From a bacterium (GTDB lineage: Bacteria > JAMCPX01), in contig JAJYJX010000118.1 in assembly GCA_021789095.1 (NCBI GenBank), positions 1-7,535 on the forward strand: 7,535 nt of DNA. Direction: 5' to 3'. Below, in pieces: positions 1-7,535 of this stretch. How positions within the stretch are numbered: the first letter of the stretch is position 1; each line of letters begins with the position of its first letter. The notes under the pieces are model-generated. The model was not told the origin of the DNA. It did not search any database and saw only the letters and a program-made list of their open reading frames with translations. The position numbers and the translations under genes were made by a program.

Positions 1-1551
1 CATGGGGTTATTGATCTCATGTGCAACGCCTGCTGCAAGGGTGCCTATGGAGGCAAGCTTTTCCGTGTTGTAGATGCGGTGTTCCAACTCCATTTTCTCG
101 GTTATATCCTTTATGATAGCAGTGCTGCCGATACTCGTGCCGTCCTTTGCCCGAACCAATGTACGGGAAATATCAACAGTGATGCGCCTGCCGCTTTTTG
201 TTATGCGGGGCGCGATATAATCCTTTACATAGCCCTTTGTTGCAACTTCCCTTTCAATGTCCTTTAACTCCATTTCTGCATCAAGCTCGGGCGGTATGAG
301 ATTATGAAAGCTCTGGCCGATCATTTCCTCTGCACTGTACTCGAAGATCAATTCCGCCCCTTTATTCCACGTCTGTATTTTATTATTGTTGTCTATAAAG
401 ATGATTGCATCAACCGAGTTCTGAAGAATGTTGGAAAGGTACCTCTCTTTTTCACTTACCTGTTCCTTCAGTGCGCGTGATATCCTCTGCTGGTAAGTGA
501 TTATAAGGAATCCAAACAAAAACATACCTGCAATCAGCGCTGCCTCTGCAGCAAAGTGTCGCACATACATCAAATGGACTGCTTCAGCCACTTCCGTGAT
601 CGGTGCAACCACGGCCACTGACCACATATGTCCGGCAGGCAGCAGCGTGCTCTTAACAGGCGTAAATGCTATTAATTTTGTAATCTCGCCTTCATGAATT
701 CCCCTATGCCAGCCGCTGACATATATGCCGGTGCCTTCCTCGCCGTTGAGCATGCGATCCTTCATAATCTGATTGATCTGGGTGAAGGTTATGTAGGGTT
801 TGCGCTCTTTTCTGACCGAAAAGGCGTCTTTCCCGATAAACTCTTTTTCCGGGTGGTAAAGGAACATGCCTGTTTCATCAATAACCCAGGCATATCCTGT
901 TTTACCCGACCGTATATTGCTTGTTACGGTTCTTACAAGTTTAGAAATATCTAATTTTGCAAAAAGTAATTTTATCCCGTTAGAAGGCCCTGCCTTTCTA
1001 ACGGGGGTTACTTTTGTACCCGTGGAATCTATAGTTATATAAAACGCACCCGTGATGGTCGGCTCCCCGGCCGCCCCTTCCACGCTCAGGGGACCGAGGA
1101 CCATATCGCCGCGATGAATATCTTTCGCGACCTTCTCAAGGGTTGCCAGTCCTGCGCCGGAATGACTGTTTACCTCGAATGTATTACCCTTGCTGTCAAC
1201 AAAACCAATCTCCATAAGTCCTTTTGACTGGTTTTCTTCGAAAACTACCTTCATTGCCTCTTCGAAAGAATCACGGGTACTTCCTTTGATGAGTTGCTTT
1301 AAACTCTGTATGCCTGTCTCAATGTCACCAAGATTCACCTGTATATGGGAGGCTGACTGGCGGGCAAGAATAAGCTGCTGCTGGTTAAAATCATCGTTTA
1401 TCTGATGACGCATGATGCTTGCGTTCTGATAAACCAGGAAAAATTCCGTTGCGATGGTGAGGAGGAATAGTACAAGACTAATTATAGCGAGGTAACGTGA
1501 TGTGAGAAGGGTGTTAAAGAATGCTTTAAGCCTGAGGATCAACGGGTTCAT
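1..1551 (-). CDS. Membrane sensor histidine kinase, Cache-PAS-HisKA (C-terminus beyond window)
   Basis: The reading frame is open from the ATG at 1551 to the left edge, giving 517 residues with no stop, so the gene is cut by the window. Residues about 20-41 form a first membrane helix. Residues about 42-330 look like a periplasmic double-Cache sensor domain (GYAWVIDETGMFLYHP at 219-234 is typical of the second Cache lobe). Residues about 332-352 form a second membrane helix. No HAMP domain is seen; a short linker leads into a PAS domain (about 368-485, with DAIIFIDNNNKIQTWN). The window ends just after the phospho-acceptor H-box, LASIGTLAAGVAHEINNPM, with His511. The ATPase domain must lie to the left. 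Such kinases sense a small extracytoplasmic ligand, here unknown, and phosphorylate a response regulator not seen here. The start is 5 nt after the stop of the upstream gene and has only a weak ribosome site, which suggests translational coupling. Confidence 0.93.
   Translation of the reverse strand, partial: MNPLILRLKAFFNTLLTSRYLAIISLVLFLLTIATEFFLVYQNASIMRHQINDDFNQQQLILARQSASHIQVNLGDIETGIQSLKQLIKGSTRDSFEEAMKVVFEENQSKGLMEIGFVDSKGNTFEVNSHSGAGLATLEKVAKDIHRGDMVLGPLSVEGAAGEPTITGAFYITIDSTGTKVTPVRKAGPSNGIKLLFAKLDISKLVRTVTSNIRSGKTGYAWVIDETGMFLYHPEKEFIGKDAFSVRKERKPYITFTQINQIMKDRMLNGEEGTGIYVSGWHRGIHEGEITKLIAFTPVKSTLLPAGHMWSVAVVAPITEVAEAVHLMYVRHFAAEAALIAGMFLFGFLIITYQQRISRALKEQVSEKERYLSNILQNSVDAIIFIDNNNKIQTWNKGAELIFEYSAEEMIGQSFHNLIPPELDAEMELKDIEREVATKGYVKDYIAPRITKSGRRITVDISRTLVRAKDGTSIGSTAIIKDITEKMELEHRIYNTEKLASIGTLAAGVAHEINNPM
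976..1005. repeat. 30-bp inverted repeat inside the histidine kinase gene
   Basis: CCCGTTAGAAGGC (976-988) and GCCTTTCTAACGGG (992-1005) are inverted copies of each other with a single bulged base and a 3-nt loop. On the coding strand the palindrome fills exactly ten codons (residues 183-192, PVRKAGPSNG) in a loop of the Cache domain. The strength of the stem is well above what is expected by chance in a coding region. A short downstream T-run (TTTTTG) on the coding strand is separated from the stem by about 10 nt, so it is not a convincing terminator. Confidence 0.6.
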
Positions 1552-1556
1552 ATATT

Positions 1557-4100
1557 TTATCCGCTGTTATTTTTGCTAAGGTTCAATCTTTTCACGAAAT
1601 CATCCCTGTACCACCTTGTAACAGAATCGTTTGAAAGTGCCATATCAAGTTGTTTGAACATCATAGAAATACGGCCCAGAAGGTGCAGCTTTTCAATGAT
1701 GGACTGGCGGTCCGTATGATAGAGCATAGAATCAAGAAAATCAGATTCACTGAAATTCTCGAATCCCATGCAGGAAAGAATATCCTTCAAAAGGCTGATA
1801 CGCCGTATTCTCCTGTCAAGGGAGGCACCGCCTTCCTTGTACTGCATTCTTATATAATTCTTATCAAGATCGTCAGAACACATCGCCTCTATGGTACTGA
1901 GATGATATCCCATGTATAGGCCTAAAAGCATGTATTCCTTGCCGAGGATCGCAAAGCTTTTTTCCAAAAACCCATACCTCTCCCCTCTGAGCATCTGGGT
2001 GGACAGCACCGAAACCATACCCATAAGATTGACGGGCGGGGCAGATGGCCAGCCTTCTTCTTTTACGCCGCTCCAGAAGGCGTTCATGGGCACGGAATCT
2101 ATTTCATTGTCCGGGAGCGATTTTTCCCGGATGGAACCGGACACCGTGCGATCGATGTAGATAACGTTCATGGCCAATGGAATATCGCTTTTCAGTCTCA
2201 ATCCGATTTCTTCCCTGAACCCTACATCCGTTGCCGTTGTAAACATCTCCTCCATTGCTTTCTGATGGACAAAGCGTGTGATGTCGTGGAATGTCCTGCA
2301 GTTTTCCGGTTGAAAGCTCGGAGCGGTTGAATCAATCATGCTTAAAGGCGATATCTTTGTTAAAATGTTTTTAAGAAGTTCAAAGATCGCTGTTTGATCG
2401 AAAAACTCGTAATCAGGCCGTCTTGCGTCAATCAAATCCCTGTGTATTCCTTCGTATATGATTCCGCCTGTTGCGTCCACGGTAACAGGCTTTCCGGAAG
2501 CAATTCCCATTGCCCCCCTTGCTCCGCATAGTGTTGGAACACGATATTCACGCGCCAGAGTTGCCATATGGCTTGCAATACCGCCGGATTCGGTTACTAT
2601 TGCATTTACCCTGCCCATAGCGGTTATAAGCCCCGGGAATGGATTGTTTGCAACCAGCACGGTTCCATCAGGAATGTTTGAAAGGTCCTGAATGGAATGT
2701 GCGTGGAAAACCCTGCCTGCCCCTGCACCGGGACATACTGTTATACCGTTTGAAAGCAGCGCTTCAAGTTTTGATGTGTCCGGAGATAAAACAGGAGGTC
2801 TTGCCTTTATAACCCTCAGTGGCCGGGTTTGGAGCAGGAACAGCCTGCGGCTTTGATCGATTGCCCACTCTATGTCCTGAGGGCAGCCATAATGATTTTC
2901 GATCCTCATCGCAATGTCGGTGAGTAATTTGATCTGTTCATCGTTCAGAGACGGCATGTTCTGCTCAGATGCCGGAACCGGTTCTTCAACTGTTCCGCCA
3001 TTGCTGCCCATAACAAGACGGACCGGCTTTACAGCAGTGAGGCTTTCTTTAACGGTCATGTCTTTTTTGGATATTTTAAAAACATCGGGCATTATTGTTC
3101 CGTCCACAAGGTACTTTCCCAGCCCGTAAATCGAGTTAAGCACAAGGCATTCTTTTTCAGGATGTACCGGATCGAGGGTATACATTACGCCGCTTACCGA
3201 AGCATCTACCATAGCCATGCAGCCAACACCCATGGCCAGTTCTGATTCAGAAAGGGCATGACTCAAGAAATAGTAGATGGCTTTCGGTGTGAACTTGCTT
3301 GCCAGTACTTCCCTGTACTTGTCTATCAATTCGTTGTCGCGGACATTAAGAAATGTGGCATATTGGCCTGCAAAACTGAGTGATGTGTCTTCACCTATGG
3401 CACTAGAACGCAGGGAAACCCCTTTTGCATGGGATCGCTCTTTAAGCTCTTTATATCTTTTTTGTATTGCAGAGACAAGGTCGTCCGGTACGGGGTTTGA
3501 TTTGATCATGCCCTGAATTTCATTGCTGATGCGTACAAGATCATTGTAGTGTTTTATATCAAGTTTATTTATGCTTTTATTGATCTTTTCCTGGAGCGAA
3601 TTTGCATCAACAAAATGCTTGTACGACCATGCACTTATGGCAAAACCCTCTGGTACGGCGAGGCCAAGCTTTGATTTTAACTCGCCGAGTTGAGCAATCT
3701 TGCTTCCAACGCTTACAGACCTTTTCCCCGACAGCTCCTCAATCGGGATGGTAAAATCGTCTTTAACAACTGCCTTGTTTACGGGGATCATACAGTCAAT
3801 ATCATTGTTTATGGCCTGGAGCTGTTTTTCCAGCGGACTATACCGCTGTCCGCCTATAGTGATAAGTTGATCTATTATATCTTTGACGCCGGATCTTATT
3901 TTTGAAAGGCTCGAGATTATGTAATTGATATCGAACAGATAATCACCCTGTAATTTTTCCTCCATGTCACCGATGGTTTTAAGGATCTGATTGTTCTTCT
4001 CAAGGATGTTAAGAAATATGAAAAATTTCTCTTGAATGTCGCTCAGGAGCTTTCCTGGGTTCTCCCTTTCTTTATGAAAAATATTATGGAACCAGTTCAT
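1557..4100 (-). CDS. PEP synthase/PPDK-like protein lacking the PEP/pyruvate barrel domain
   Basis: Numbered from the ATG at 4100 the protein has 847 residues; the frame stays open to an ATG at 4151 (864 residues). Residues about 1-110 are helical. Residues about 130-430 are the PPDK N-terminal ATP-grasp domain: SLRSSAIGEDTSLSFAGQY (Arg231), GVMYTLDP (304-311), QDIEWAID (Glu411) and LLQTRP (Gln424, Arg426), with Lys134 in GSKIAQLGEL, all matching ATP-binding positions of PPDK. Residues about 455-550 are the swivelling phosphohistidine domain, with GGIASHMATLAR and His511. The C-terminal ~285 residues show none of the PEP/pyruvate barrel motifs (no GxCGE-type active site). ATP-driven histidine phosphorylation therefore looks possible, but the phosphoryl acceptor is unknown, so pyruvate,water dikinase activity should not be assumed. 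No membrane segments are seen; it is likely cytosolic. It heads a unit with the histidine kinase. The 4100 start is preferred because the good ribosome site lies inside the longer version and serves a leader ORF ending at 4097. Confidence 0.88.
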   Translation of the reverse strand: MNWFHNIFHKERENPGKLLSDIQEKFFIFLNILEKNNQILKTIGDMEEKLQGDYLFDINYIISSLSKIRSGVKDIIDQLITIGGQRYSPLEKQLQAINNDIDCMIPVNKAVVKDDFTIPIEELSGKRSVSVGSKIAQLGELKSKLGLAVPEGFAISAWSYKHFVDANSLQEKINKSINKLDIKHYNDLVRISNEIQGMIKSNPVPDDLVSAIQKRYKELKERSHAKGVSLRSSAIGEDTSLSFAGQYATFLNVRDNELIDKYREVLASKFTPKAIYYFLSHALSESELAMGVGCMAMVDASVSGVMYTLDPVHPEKECLVLNSIYGLGKYLVDGTIMPDVFKISKKDMTVKESLTAVKPVRLVMGSNGGTVEEPVPASEQNMPSLNDEQIKLLTDIAMRIENHYGCPQDIEWAIDQSRRLFLLQTRPLRVIKARPPVLSPDTSKLEALLSNGITVCPGAGAGRVFHAHSIQDLSNIPDGTVLVANNPFPGLITAMGRVNAIVTESGGIASHMATLAREYRVPTLCGARGAMGIASGKPVTVDATGGIIYEGIHRDLIDARRPDYEFFDQTAIFELLKNILTKISPLSMIDSTAPSFQPENCRTFHDITRFVHQKAMEEMFTTATDVGFREEIGLRLKSDIPLAMNVIYIDRTVSGSIREKSLPDNEIDSVPMNAFWSGVKEEGWPSAPPVNLMGMVSVLSTQMLRGERYGFLEKSFAILGKEYMLLGLYMGYHLSTIEAMCSDDLDKNYIRMQYKEGGASLDRRIRRISLLKDILSCMGFENFSESDFLDSMLYHTDRQSIIEKLHLLGRISMMFKQLDMALSNDSVTRWYRDDFVKRLNLSKNNSG

Positions 4101-4135
4101 ATGGGTACTCGCCGGAAGAAGGCGGTGAAATCCAT
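4097..4135 (-). CDS. Candidate 12-codon leader ORF coupled to the dikinase-like gene
   Basis: An ATG at 4135 is preceded by AAAGGAG (4148-4142) with a 6-nt spacer, the best ribosome site at this end of the operon. It opens a short frame, MDFTAFFRRVPI, that ends in TGA at 4099-4097. That stop overlaps the ATG at 4100 of the large gene as ATGA, the classic arrangement for translational coupling. The frame differs from that of the large protein. Two alternatives remain: a single-base indel, real or a sequencing error, that separates the true N-terminus from its gene; or a chance ORF with translation starting at 4151 despite its poor ribosome site. The peptide has no repeated codon run typical of an attenuator. 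Confidence 0.45.
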   Translation of the reverse strand: MDFTAFFRRVPI

Positions 4136-4141
4136 ACAAAT

Positions 4142-4148
4142 CTCCTTT
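4142..4148 (-). promoter_or_regulatory. Shine-Dalgarno site AAAGGAG
   Basis: AAAGGAG lies 6 nt before the ATG at 4135. It falls inside codons 2-4 of the longest possible reading of the large gene (start 4151), which argues that the 4151 start is not the main one. Neither 4151 nor 4100 has a comparable site of its own. Confidence 0.6.
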
Positions 4149-4180
4149 CATCCAGTGATACTCAACTTCAACCCATTTTT

Positions 4181-4209
4181 ATAATAAAATACAAAGCAGT
4201 TTATGTCAA
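4181..4209 (-). promoter_or_regulatory. Sigma70-type promoter for the dikinase-kinase unit
   Basis: On the minus strand a perfect -35 hexamer TTGACA (4209-4204) is followed by a 17-bp spacer and TATTAT (4186-4181), which matches the -10 consensus at five of six positions. Transcription would begin near 4173-4175, leaving a leader of about 25 nt before the AAAGGAG site. The fit of both boxes and spacing is good, but this is read by eye and not tested. Confidence 0.6.
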
Positions 4210-4463: not shown

Positions 4464-5822
4464 ATGACGAATCATCAAACAACAACCTCATCAATGGGAT
4501 GGAAAGAACTGTGGCTGAAAGAGGACTGGTGGGCTATCTGGCTCGGTATCGGCATCATAGTTATCGCACTTCTTTTTTTCGCAGCGCACGGCACGCTGGG
4601 TCCCCTTGCAGTATTACCGCCCCGCTGGGACAGCTTCGGCCAGTTATTCGGACATTTCAAAGCCAACGTCGTCTGGTATGGTATCCAGTTTGTTGTATGG
4701 CTTGCGATATTCAGCGTAAGCACAGGCATCATGGGAATAAAACAAAAGGACTTTATCCCGTCTTTTGTATTTCTGTATCTGCTTTCCCTGGTAGTTCTGA
4801 TAATAGGGCAATGGAAACCCGCAAGTTATTACGGTTTTGAAGCGCCCCTTGTAGCACTGCTTGTAGGATTGATAATATCCAATACAGGTAAACTACCTCA
4901 ATGGCTGGGGGCAGGTTTCAGGGTTGAGTATTATATAAAAACGGGTATCGTTTTGCTGGGAGCGACCTTGCCTTTTACACTCATATTCTGGGCAGGGCCT
5001 GTTGCTGTGATTCAGGCCACGATAATATCCCTTGCAACATGTTTAACCATATACTTTGTAGGTACAAAGGTCTTCAAGCTTGATAAGAAGTTGAGCGCCG
5101 TGCTGGGCGTCGGCGGAGCGATCTGCGGTGTATCGGCAGCTATCGCGGTCGGTGGGGCCGTAAAGGCAAAAAAGGAAGACGTCTCTATAACCATAACGCT
5201 TGTAATTGTATGGGCAATTATCATGATATTCCTGCTGCCTTTCGTATTCAGACTTCTGCATCTTCATCCCGGCATAGGCGGTGCATGGGTCGGTACGTCG
5301 GAGTTCGCAGATGCCGCAGGGTTTGCAGCTGCTTCTGCTTATGGCCGCATGGTCGGCAATGAAGATGCCGCAATAAAGGCGTTTACCCTGATGAAGGTCA
5401 TTGGCAGGGACATATGGGTCGGTATATGGTCGTTCATCTTTGCAGTGATTTCATGCGTTAAATGGGAAAAGGCAAACAGTTCTGAGAAACCAGAGCTAAA
5501 GGAGATATGGTGGAGGTTCCCGAAATTCGTACTTGGCTTTTTTGTTGCATCAATGCTCATTACGCTCATATCAAGCTTTTACACACTTGTGGAATACAAC
5601 AGCTTGTTGAAACCAATGCTTGTTGCACCTGTATCCGACCTCAGGTTATGGCTGTTTATCTTCTGCTTCCTGAGCATCGGTCTTACAACAAAGTTCGGGG
5701 AGCTGACTGCGGCAGGCAGAAAACCGTTTCTCGCGTTTACATCCGGGGTAGTTGTTAATGTTTTGCTGGGCTTTCTGTTGTCTGTAATTATTCTCGGCAG
5801 TTACTGGTCGAGTATGGAATAA
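4464..5822 (+). CDS. UPF0324/YeiH family inner-membrane transporter (putative sulfate exporter family)
   Basis: The 452-residue protein is highly hydrophobic, with about ten or more predicted membrane helices (for example about 24-41, 68-90, 98-116, 125-140, 156-178, 180-200, 240-262, 315-332, 353-372, 392-408 and 421-446). Family hallmarks of PF03601 are clear: YIKTGIVLLGA (157-167), GVGGAICGVSAAIAVGG (215-231), GAWVGTSEFADAAGFAAA (273-290) and KVIGRDIWVG (311-320). Databases label this family a putative sulfate exporter, but the substrate is poorly supported and I would not assign it from sequence. It is about 100 residues longer than E. coli YeiH, the extra part being an N-terminal region with additional helices; this matches a longer subfamily that shares the TSEFADAAGFAAA signature. 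The start is fixed by AAGGAGGT. A small Cys-rich gene follows after 8 nt and is probably co-transcribed. Confidence 0.93.
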   Translation: MTNHQTTTSSMGWKELWLKEDWWAIWLGIGIIVIALLFFAAHGTLGPLAVLPPRWDSFGQLFGHFKANVVWYGIQFVVWLAIFSVSTGIMGIKQKDFIPSFVFLYLLSLVVLIIGQWKPASYYGFEAPLVALLVGLIISNTGKLPQWLGAGFRVEYYIKTGIVLLGATLPFTLIFWAGPVAVIQATIISLATCLTIYFVGTKVFKLDKKLSAVLGVGGAICGVSAAIAVGGAVKAKKEDVSITITLVIVWAIIMIFLLPFVFRLLHLHPGIGGAWVGTSEFADAAGFAAASAYGRMVGNEDAAIKAFTLMKVIGRDIWVGIWSFIFAVISCVKWEKANSSEKPELKEIWWRFPKFVLGFFVASMLITLISSFYTLVEYNSLLKPMLVAPVSDLRLWLFIFCFLSIGLTTKFGELTAAGRKPFLAFTSGVVVNVLLGFLLSVIILGSYWSSME

Positions 5823-6143: not shown

Positions 6144-7043
6144 TTATCCGTTGTGCGGCTGTTTATAAACATTTATCATGTCTTTTATAGTTTGTTCTAT
6201 TGGTATTTCCTCTGACCAGCCGAGCTTTTTTAAGCGCTGGTTATCACCGACAAAAAGCAGGGGATCAACAGAGCGTTTTAATGAGTCCGCATGTTTGATC
6301 CGGATCGAATGGCCGGTCAGATTCGTAAGATAACTAATAATTTCATCGATTGAATGTGCCTTGCCGGAGCAGACATTATAAACATCTCCGGATCGTGCTT
6401 TCTGCACAAGAATATGATATGCCCTTACAACATCCCGCACATCGGTAAAGTCCCTTTTTGTGTGCGTAATTCCAAGCTCGAGGGCAGGCTGTTTTAAGGC
6501 AAATGCTCTGACCAGTTTCGGTATGATAAATGATTCAGATTGTCCAGGCCCGGTATGGTTAAAAGAACGAGTGATGACGATGTTCAGGCCATCTGCGATA
6601 TACTTATAAGAGATCATTTCCCCTGCAGCCTTACTTGCTCCGTAATGATTGGCCGGGACAAGAGGCTGGTTTTCTGTTATAGGCTGATGTTTTTCAGATA
6701 CGATGCCGTATACATTCGATGTGCTTACATACAAAATCTTTGGATTGATACCTGCCTTTTGTACAGCCTCATAAAGGTTTAATGTACCAAGAGCATGAAC
6801 CGTATAATATTCGCTCATCTTATCGTGGGCCACATTTGCGATACCTGCAAGATGATAGATCTCATCAGGCTGAACATCTTTTATAATACTACTCAGCTTA
6901 TCTTTATCAGTTATGTCTGCCTGAAAGGTATCTTTATCATGGCAGTTATGATCAATGCCGAAAACATCATTCCCGAGCGAGAGTAAACGTTGCTTTAAAT
7001 AATTTCCTACAAACCCGCTTATGCCTGTTATAAGGGACTTCAT
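6144..7043 (-). CDS. rmd: GDP-4-dehydro-6-deoxy-D-mannose reductase (SDR family)
   Basis: The 299-residue protein is an extended short-chain dehydrogenase of normal length for Rmd (about 300). It shows the NAD(P)-binding GISGFVG near the N-terminus (7-13), the HLAG motif (64-67), the catalytic serine/threonine in YVSTSNVYG (105-113), and Tyr134 with Lys138 in YGASK. The later stretch RDFTDVRDVVRAYHIL and YNVCSGKAHSIDEI is typical of Rmd and related GDP-sugar enzymes. It would reduce the 4-keto sugar made by Gmd to GDP-D-rhamnose in the cytosol, a precursor for O-antigen or other surface glycans. Its ATG overlaps the gmd stop as ATGA (7043-7040), so the two are translationally coupled. A related epimerase or reductase making another GDP-6-deoxyhexose cannot be excluded; a GDP-L-fucose synthase looks less likely. 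Confidence 0.87.
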   Translation of the reverse strand: MKSLITGISGFVGNYLKQRLLSLGNDVFGIDHNCHDKDTFQADITDKDKLSSIIKDVQPDEIYHLAGIANVAHDKMSEYYTVHALGTLNLYEAVQKAGINPKILYVSTSNVYGIVSEKHQPITENQPLVPANHYGASKAAGEMISYKYIADGLNIVITRSFNHTGPGQSESFIIPKLVRAFALKQPALELGITHTKRDFTDVRDVVRAYHILVQKARSGDVYNVCSGKAHSIDEIISYLTNLTGHSIRIKHADSLKRSVDPLLFVGDNQRLKKLGWSEEIPIEQTIKDMINVYKQPHNG

Positions 7044-7535
7044 TTCTTTAACATGGAGACCCTGTTCAGATCAGCCTCTGTCATAATCTCAACAAGCTTC
7101 TTAAAGCTTGTTTTGGGCTGCCAGCCGAGTACTTTTTTTGCCTTGGTGCAATCACCGAGGAGTTCATTGACCTCGGCAGGTCTGTAAAATCTTTTTATGC
7201 TTCTCGCAAGGACTTTCCCGGTCTTTCTGTCTCTGGCGGTCTCTTTGTAACCTTTACCCTCCCATACCAGCTTGAAGCCTGCATATTCAAATGCGTGAGT
7301 AACAAAATCTCTTACACTGTTGTTCTTACCTGTAGCTACGACATAATTATCGGGCCTTTTCTGCTGAAGCATAAGCCACATTGATTCAACATACTCGGGA
7401 GCATACCCCCAGTCGCGACAGGCATCAAGGGTCCCAAGCTCTAAAATCTTCAGTAATCCGTACCTTATTCTTGCCGCTGCATCCGTGATCTTTCGTGTTA
7501 CGAACTCAATGCCGCGCAGCGGGGATTCATGGTTG
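7040..7535 (-). CDS. gmd: GDP-mannose 4,6-dehydratase, C-terminal part (start beyond window)
   Basis: The frame is open through the right edge, so only the last 164 residues are present; the full enzyme is usually about 340-370. The visible part begins NHESPLRGIEFVTRKIT, followed by LGTLDACRDWGYAPEYVESMW, VVATGKNNSVRDF, FYRPAEVNELLGD and KAKKVLGWQPKTSFKKLV, all signatures of the Gmd C-terminal substrate-binding half. The catalytic Tyr/Lys and nucleotide-binding N-terminus lie outside. Gmd converts GDP-D-mannose to GDP-4-dehydro-6-deoxy-D-mannose, the substrate of the next gene, with which it overlaps by four bases (ATGA). An internal ATG at 7381 begins a shorter frame, but homology continues upstream of it to the edge, so it is not the start. 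Confidence 0.95.
   Translation of the reverse strand, partial: NHESPLRGIEFVTRKITDAAARIRYGLLKILELGTLDACRDWGYAPEYVESMWLMLQQKRPDNYVVATGKNNSVRDFVTHAFEYAGFKLVWEGKGYKETARDRKTGKVLARSIKRFYRPAEVNELLGDCTKAKKVLGWQPKTSFKKLVEIMTEADLNRVSMLKK

Follow-up and report, generated by a model that had tools for sequence, protein, structure and literature searches.

Domain organization of the dikinase-like protein

The window, a stretch of 7,535 nucleotides from contig JAJYJX010000118.1, encodes a dikinase-like protein that lacks the PEP/pyruvate barrel. The gene (1557..4151, minus strand) is a single open frame of 864 residues, with an alternative start at 4100 that corresponds to Met18. Matches to several homologues begin at residue 17 or 18 of the query, which fits a start at Met18; no ribosome-binding site is evident ahead of Met18, and a GGAG sits directly after the ATG at 4151 on the minus strand. 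Residues are numbered here from 4151, with an offset of 17 from the preliminary description, which counted from 4100. Upstream of the gene, a sigma-70-like promoter (TTGACA-17-TATTAT; 4181..4209, minus strand) is predicted from its 11/12 match to the consensus. Neither Rfam nor tRNA scans found anything in the window, and PADLOC gave no defence match.

The protein starts with a helical region (residues 28-130; 3762..4070, minus strand as for all the following domains), for which the model gives helices at residues 32-66, 75-100 and 106-121, and which is partially conserved among the homologues (L50, N53, L57 and L107). It is followed by an ATP-grasp domain of the PPDK_N type (residues 147-452; 2796..3713; Pfam PF01326, 5.4e-89) and a phospho-His swivel domain of the PEP-utilizers type (residues 493-563; 2463..2675; PF00391, 3.6e-17), which bears the predicted phosphorylated histidine His528 (codon 2568..2570). 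Among 87 aligned full-length homologues, the residues K151, R248, E428 and Q441 are found in 87/87, R443 in 85/87 and His528 in 86/87; position 526, an alanine in the window protein, is threonine in 46 of the 87. The last domain (residues 578-860; 1572..2420), the presumed acceptor or partner domain, belongs to no Pfam or PDB family and contains an HDxxRxxH motif (residues 622-629; 2265..2288) with near-invariant polar residues in the homologue alignment. The preliminary description had reported a dikinase-like gene with intact ATP-grasp and phospho-His residues and no barrel, which is confirmed by domain searches, alignment and the fold model; its Lys134, Arg231, Glu411, Gln424, Arg426 and His511 are all present, as residues 151, 248, 428, 441, 443 and 528. 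The observation on the window protein is real and far beyond chance.

Fold of the C-terminal domain

AlphaFold modelled the C-terminal domain alone with a mean pLDDT of 85, and the whole protein with 88. The domain consists of mixed helix and sheet in the model, and the order of its elements is not that of a β/α-barrel. It carries a near-invariant set of polar residues, composed of H622, D623, R626, H629, G748, H750, N765, R780, R784, D804 and D836. Pfam returned nothing above the cut-off in residues 1-130 or 575-864, the NCBIfam PEP synthase models match the window protein only up to residue 574, and the alignment with solved PEP synthases reaches residue 577 at most. The barrel family (PEP-utilizers_C, PF02896) is matched neither by the window protein nor by the C-terminal domains of 85 homologues, and these 85 domains gave no credible match to any Pfam family.

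Structural similarity search of the C-terminal domain against the PDB using Foldseek gave no match at E ≤ 0.001, which is no proof of a new fold. The best VIA-align score (Z 6.4, to a domain of T4 MotA) is below the meaningful level and may reflect a common arrangement, and viral structures likewise showed no clear fold match. A profile search against PDB sequences brought up UPF0166 as a candidate relative, which was rejected as not credible (best E 0.022). The model of the whole protein matches PEP synthase, rifampin phosphotransferase (RPH) and PPDK via the two shared domains. The preliminary description had claimed a C-terminus without the PEP/pyruvate barrel and had itself named a fold match to the barrel as the counter-evidence; this match was sought by Pfam, profile and structure searches and in the model, and was not found. 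The similar C-termini that it mentioned do exist: all the aligned homologues share this part as a conserved domain.

A dikinase family that tracks dissimilatory sulfite reductase

When one genome per species was scanned, at least 579 relatives came up, and the best 80 were kept for locus counts. The 85 homologues all have the same C-terminal domain, and the hosts among the homologues kept are Desulfobacterota, Nitrospirota, Ignavibacteria, Acidobacteria, GN15, Omnitrophota and unplaced bins. The home genome, from which the window comes, has four copies; the three besides the window copy lie on contigs C174 and C25 and are 31-37% identical to the window protein, C-terminal domain included. The ends of C25 and C174 share a 115-base overlap inside the fourth copy, which is split over the junction, and the two contigs are therefore almost certainly adjacent. 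The window protein, in which the ATP-grasp domain, the swivel His and the conserved C-terminal domain with HDxxRxxH are all present, falls into a group of seven in the tree with a support of 1.0 (Ignavibacteria, GN15, Omnitrophota and other bins). The order dikinase, histidine kinase, response regulator, CBS protein and DASS transporter is found, whole or in part, in several members of this group and at the equally close locus L012 of Acidobacteria, and the dikinase and histidine kinase genes overlap in most of these closest-relative loci.

A viral scan gave two weak matches, to the ATP-grasp part only. Long open frames were searched for fusions of the dikinase to receiver, histidine kinase or CBS domains; their long N-terminal extensions seem to be read-in from outside the gene, and C-terminal extensions of ~120-210 residues matched no family above the cut-off. 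Antisense frames of more than 900 residues run across the dikinase gene at L049:7881-10787 and L067:7671-10454, probably as an effect of codon composition.

The home genome encodes dsrA (1.5e-174), and in its class the family is present in 3/3 genomes with dsrA and absent from 2/2 genomes without it. Among family carriers from other groups, dsrA scored above the curated cut-off in 29/29 genomes tested. Among the 97 genomes of the class Ignavibacteria, 22 have both, two have just the family, 14 just dsrA and 59 neither; dsrA is present in 22 of the 24 family carriers (Fisher p = 2e-10, odds ratio 46). Thermodesulfovibrionia have dsrA in 87/91 genomes and the family in 53; the near universality of dsrA makes this class no test of dependence on dsrA, and the lower count of the family indicates that sulfate respiration can do without it. 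Of 61 Desulfovibrionales genomes, 55 have the family, with up to nine copies. Altogether, in counts uncorrected for shared ancestry, the family tracks dissimilatory sulfite reductase over several phyla; the “related anaerobes” to which the C-termini had been attributed were a correct but too vague designation. Routine annotation labels these proteins PEP synthase or PPDK and so leads metabolic models of sulfate reducers astray; the taxonomic and genomic association of the family was not found described in the papers searched.

Regulators and anion transporters next to the dikinase gene

Downstream of the dikinase gene lies a Cache-PAS-HisKA sensor histidine kinase (1..1551, minus strand), cut by the contig end; because it starts 5 bases after the dikinase stop, the two genes are probably co-transcribed. 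A YeiH-like (PF03601) putative anion exporter (4464..5822, plus strand) is divergent from the dikinase gene and matches TIGR00698 below the cut-off; we take the YeiH family to be TC 2.A.98. The rest of the window (6144-7534) encodes an NAD-dependent epimerase/dehydratase and the end of a GDP-mannose 4,6-dehydratase, sugar-nucleotide enzymes unrelated to the dikinase finding.

Among the best 80 loci of at least 579 relatives, in counts that are lower bounds because several contigs end early, two-component genes lie within five genes of the dikinase in 66 loci (response regulator 57, histidine kinase 52), an anion transporter in 48 (TauE 37, DASS 13, CitMHS 4, YeiH-type 1), both in 44, a universal stress protein in 22 and a CBS protein in 19. 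In the remaining 32 of the 80 loci, some of which are truncated at a contig end, no transporter was recognised in the vicinity. Two or three places upstream of the dikinase, 20-30% of the genes encode transporters, compared to ~5% beyond five places, and the frequency of TauE near the dikinase contrasts with only ~5 TauE genes in the entire home genome (2.15 Mb). Recurrent regulatory neighbours are universal stress, CBS, NtrC and GntR proteins; those in Desulfovibrionales include a DSP/PTP phosphatase and phosphonate-type binding proteins, and TauE, a histidine kinase and a response regulator adjoin the home paralogues on C174. As four transporter families share the dikinase context, the common factor should be transport rather than one pathway.

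Several other neighbours recur. A conserved protein of ~235 residues (cluster c4), which matches no Pfam family and seems to have a membrane helix at either end, sits between TauE and the dikinase (e.g. L090:7278-7985) and is found near the dikinase in 23 of the 80 loci. A CxxCxxCC (PF03692) protein follows the dikinase at L008:5571-6305 and L037:10475-11215, and the DSP phosphatase protein at L137:9021-10079 has a weak PF03692 match, which suggests a function linked to these CxxCxxCC neighbours. The home paralogues are flanked by redox modules (L008:1-1662 on C174 and L009:8-9218 on C25), which comprise an MvhD-like FlpD, an FeS protein with 4Fe-4S motifs, a CCG-domain protein and multihaem-like proteins.

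TSUP (TauE-like) and DASS proteins are listed as putative sulfate transporters of sulfate reducers by Marietou et al. (PMC5840216); a term search of that article showed neither phosphoenolpyruvate nor two-component genes. A molybdate-responsive cluster of D. vulgaris contains universal stress proteins and a putative sulfate exporter (TC 2.A.98; PMC10102598). With its distribution following dsrA and its genes placed on anion-transport modules, the family points to a layer of control over sulfate respiration that is as yet unstudied.

Relation to the Desulfovibrio nitrate cluster

The “nitrate cluster” DVU0251-DVU0245 encodes TauE, a hypothetical protein, a PtxB-like binding protein, a histidine kinase, a receiver, DVU0246 and a phosphatase (Korte et al. 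2014, PMC4001038). DVU0246 was labelled “pyruvate phosphate dikinase” and left without a function by the authors, who found that transposon mutants of DVU0246, DVU0247 (receiver), DVU0250 and DVU0251 (TauE) are nitrate-resistant, growing equally with and without 100 mM nitrate (PMC4001038). Cluster mutants of D. alaskensis have a mild growth defect on thiosulfate, according to unpublished data mentioned in the same article (PMC4001038); a leaky thiosulfate transporter was suggested by Korte et al. (PMC4001038), and the transporter view was repeated in a later paper (PMC9723548).

Gene order and sizes at the Desulfovibrionales loci L136, L137 and L139 match this cluster, with TauE in L136, the binding protein, histidine kinase, dikinase and phosphatase in L136 and L137, and the receiver in L137 and L139. 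The dikinase at these three loci is a family member with the C-terminal domain kept, and that of L139 is 27% identical to the window protein over 819 aligned columns. At L139:6907-8426, genes for a siroheme-decarboxylase-like AsnC regulator and a radical SAM protein adjoin the cluster-like genes. DVU0246 and its counterpart Dde_0604 have PPDK_N and PEP-utilizers domains in ~744 residues (2235 bp), flanked by TauE, a phosphonate-type binding protein, a histidine kinase, a receiver and a phosphatase; the 2235 bp of DVU0246 are in keeping with a family member whose N-terminus is short. Synteny, length and domain annotation strongly indicate that DVU0246 belongs to the family of the window dikinase, whereas the window copy represents a different branch that adjoins a YeiH exporter and has its histidine kinase directly downstream. 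As loss of each gives the same phenotype, the dikinase, receiver and permease should act in one pathway; this common phenotype does not tell a protein acceptor from a small-molecule acceptor. Membership of DVU0246 offers a possible explanation for the long-unexplained nitrate-cluster mutants, which is relevant to the nitrate control of oil-field souring.

Proposed function

We propose, with evenly divided confidence, that the window protein represents an unnamed family of one-chain dikinases devoted to regulation in sulfate/sulfite-reducing bacteria, where it would regulate oxyanion transport through its phospho-His. As judged by homology, His528 would be phosphorylated by the ATP-grasp domain, releasing AMP and Pi, and the swivel domain would carry the phosphate to the C-terminal domain, such phosphorylation and shuttling being the family mechanism (PMC4844700, PMC12167813). 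The C-terminal domain, or a partner bound by it, may accept the phosphate, which is most likely passed to a regulatory target because genes for anion transporters and for signal proteins adjoin those of the relatives, whose hosts are nearly all sulfate/sulfite reducers. The outcome would adjust how sulfur oxyanions (sulfate, sulfite and thiosulfate) are taken up or exported, a direction that we infer, and the histidine kinase next to the dikinase, with a stand-alone response regulator, may act together with it on this transport. A direct link of the dikinase to receiver or transporter, like an acceptor protein, is hypothetical. More tentatively, and as somewhat less than probable, the family might form an undescribed signalling branch: a one-piece, PEP-independent counterpart of PTS Enzyme I with a C-terminal domain of new fold, which phosphorylates a transporter, receiver or other partner and gates sulfur-oxyanion transport in DsrAB organisms. 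The family is open to direct testing in genetically tractable Desulfovibrio strains.

The main rival is a small-molecule dikinase, plausible though less likely, whose C-terminal domain binds and phosphorylates a metabolite, perhaps one imported through the adjacent transporter, in the manner of RPH, HpeHI and phenylphosphate synthase. The ATP-grasp and swivel chemistry is that of RPH and HpeHI (PMC4844700, PMC12167813), and H622, D623, R626, H629, H750, N765, R780 and R784 resemble a binding or active site; judged by sequence, the near-invariant His/Arg/Asn/Asp set would also suit a small-molecule active site. However, the C-terminal domain has no sequence match to any substrate-binding family, and no catabolic gene recurs downstream. 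The regulator-rich context, the four transporter families and the many paralogues per genome favour regulation over metabolism. The preliminary description had suggested a third kind of acceptor, possibly in signalling; domains, fold model and gene context uphold both this and its separation from PEP synthase, and its interpretation as a whole is partly supported.

It is considerably less likely that the protein is an energy or nucleotide sensor, in which binding of ATP, AMP or PPi together with His phosphorylation changes the conformation and partner binding without onward phosphotransfer. CBS proteins are often adenylate sensors, and sulfate activation yields PPi and AMP, both of them compounds of dikinase chemistry; the association of the family with CBS proteins and histidine kinases would agree with sensing. 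Nevertheless, the conservation of His528 (86/87) and of the swivel domain equals that in true dikinases, which suggests real phosphate transfer. An ordinary or degenerate PEP synthase, the type to which the best named matches belong, is almost certainly not what the window encodes: neither sequence nor model has a PEP-binding barrel, the C-terminal domain is of identical type in all homologues aligned, and our early idea that the protein is the organism's PEP-forming enzyme was rejected because the home genome carries a separate, complete PPDK with that barrel (PF02896, 5e-77).

Comparison with known dikinases

The window protein shares with PEP synthase and PPDK the order of an ATP-grasp domain followed by a phospho-His swivel, but differs in an extra N-terminal helical region and in an unrelated domain at the place of the C-terminal PEP/pyruvate barrel. 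ATP-grasp and swivel His domains are also common to RPH, the layout of which is ATP-grasp, acceptor domain and C-terminal His domain (PMC4844700). The acceptor domain of RPH thus lies between the two and its histidine near the C-terminus, whereas the histidine of the window protein is central (His528 of 864 residues) and the extra domain comes last; the RPH model NF041857 scores 225 bits against a cut-off of 999. The two-component phenolic dikinases HpeHI, CreHI and PpsAB have the same ATP-grasp and swivel His chemistry, divided between two proteins where the window protein has one chain; their substrate domain is RPH-like and their gene neighbours are catabolic. In glucan,water dikinase, the His domain precedes the ATP-binding domain, an order that is reversed in the window protein.
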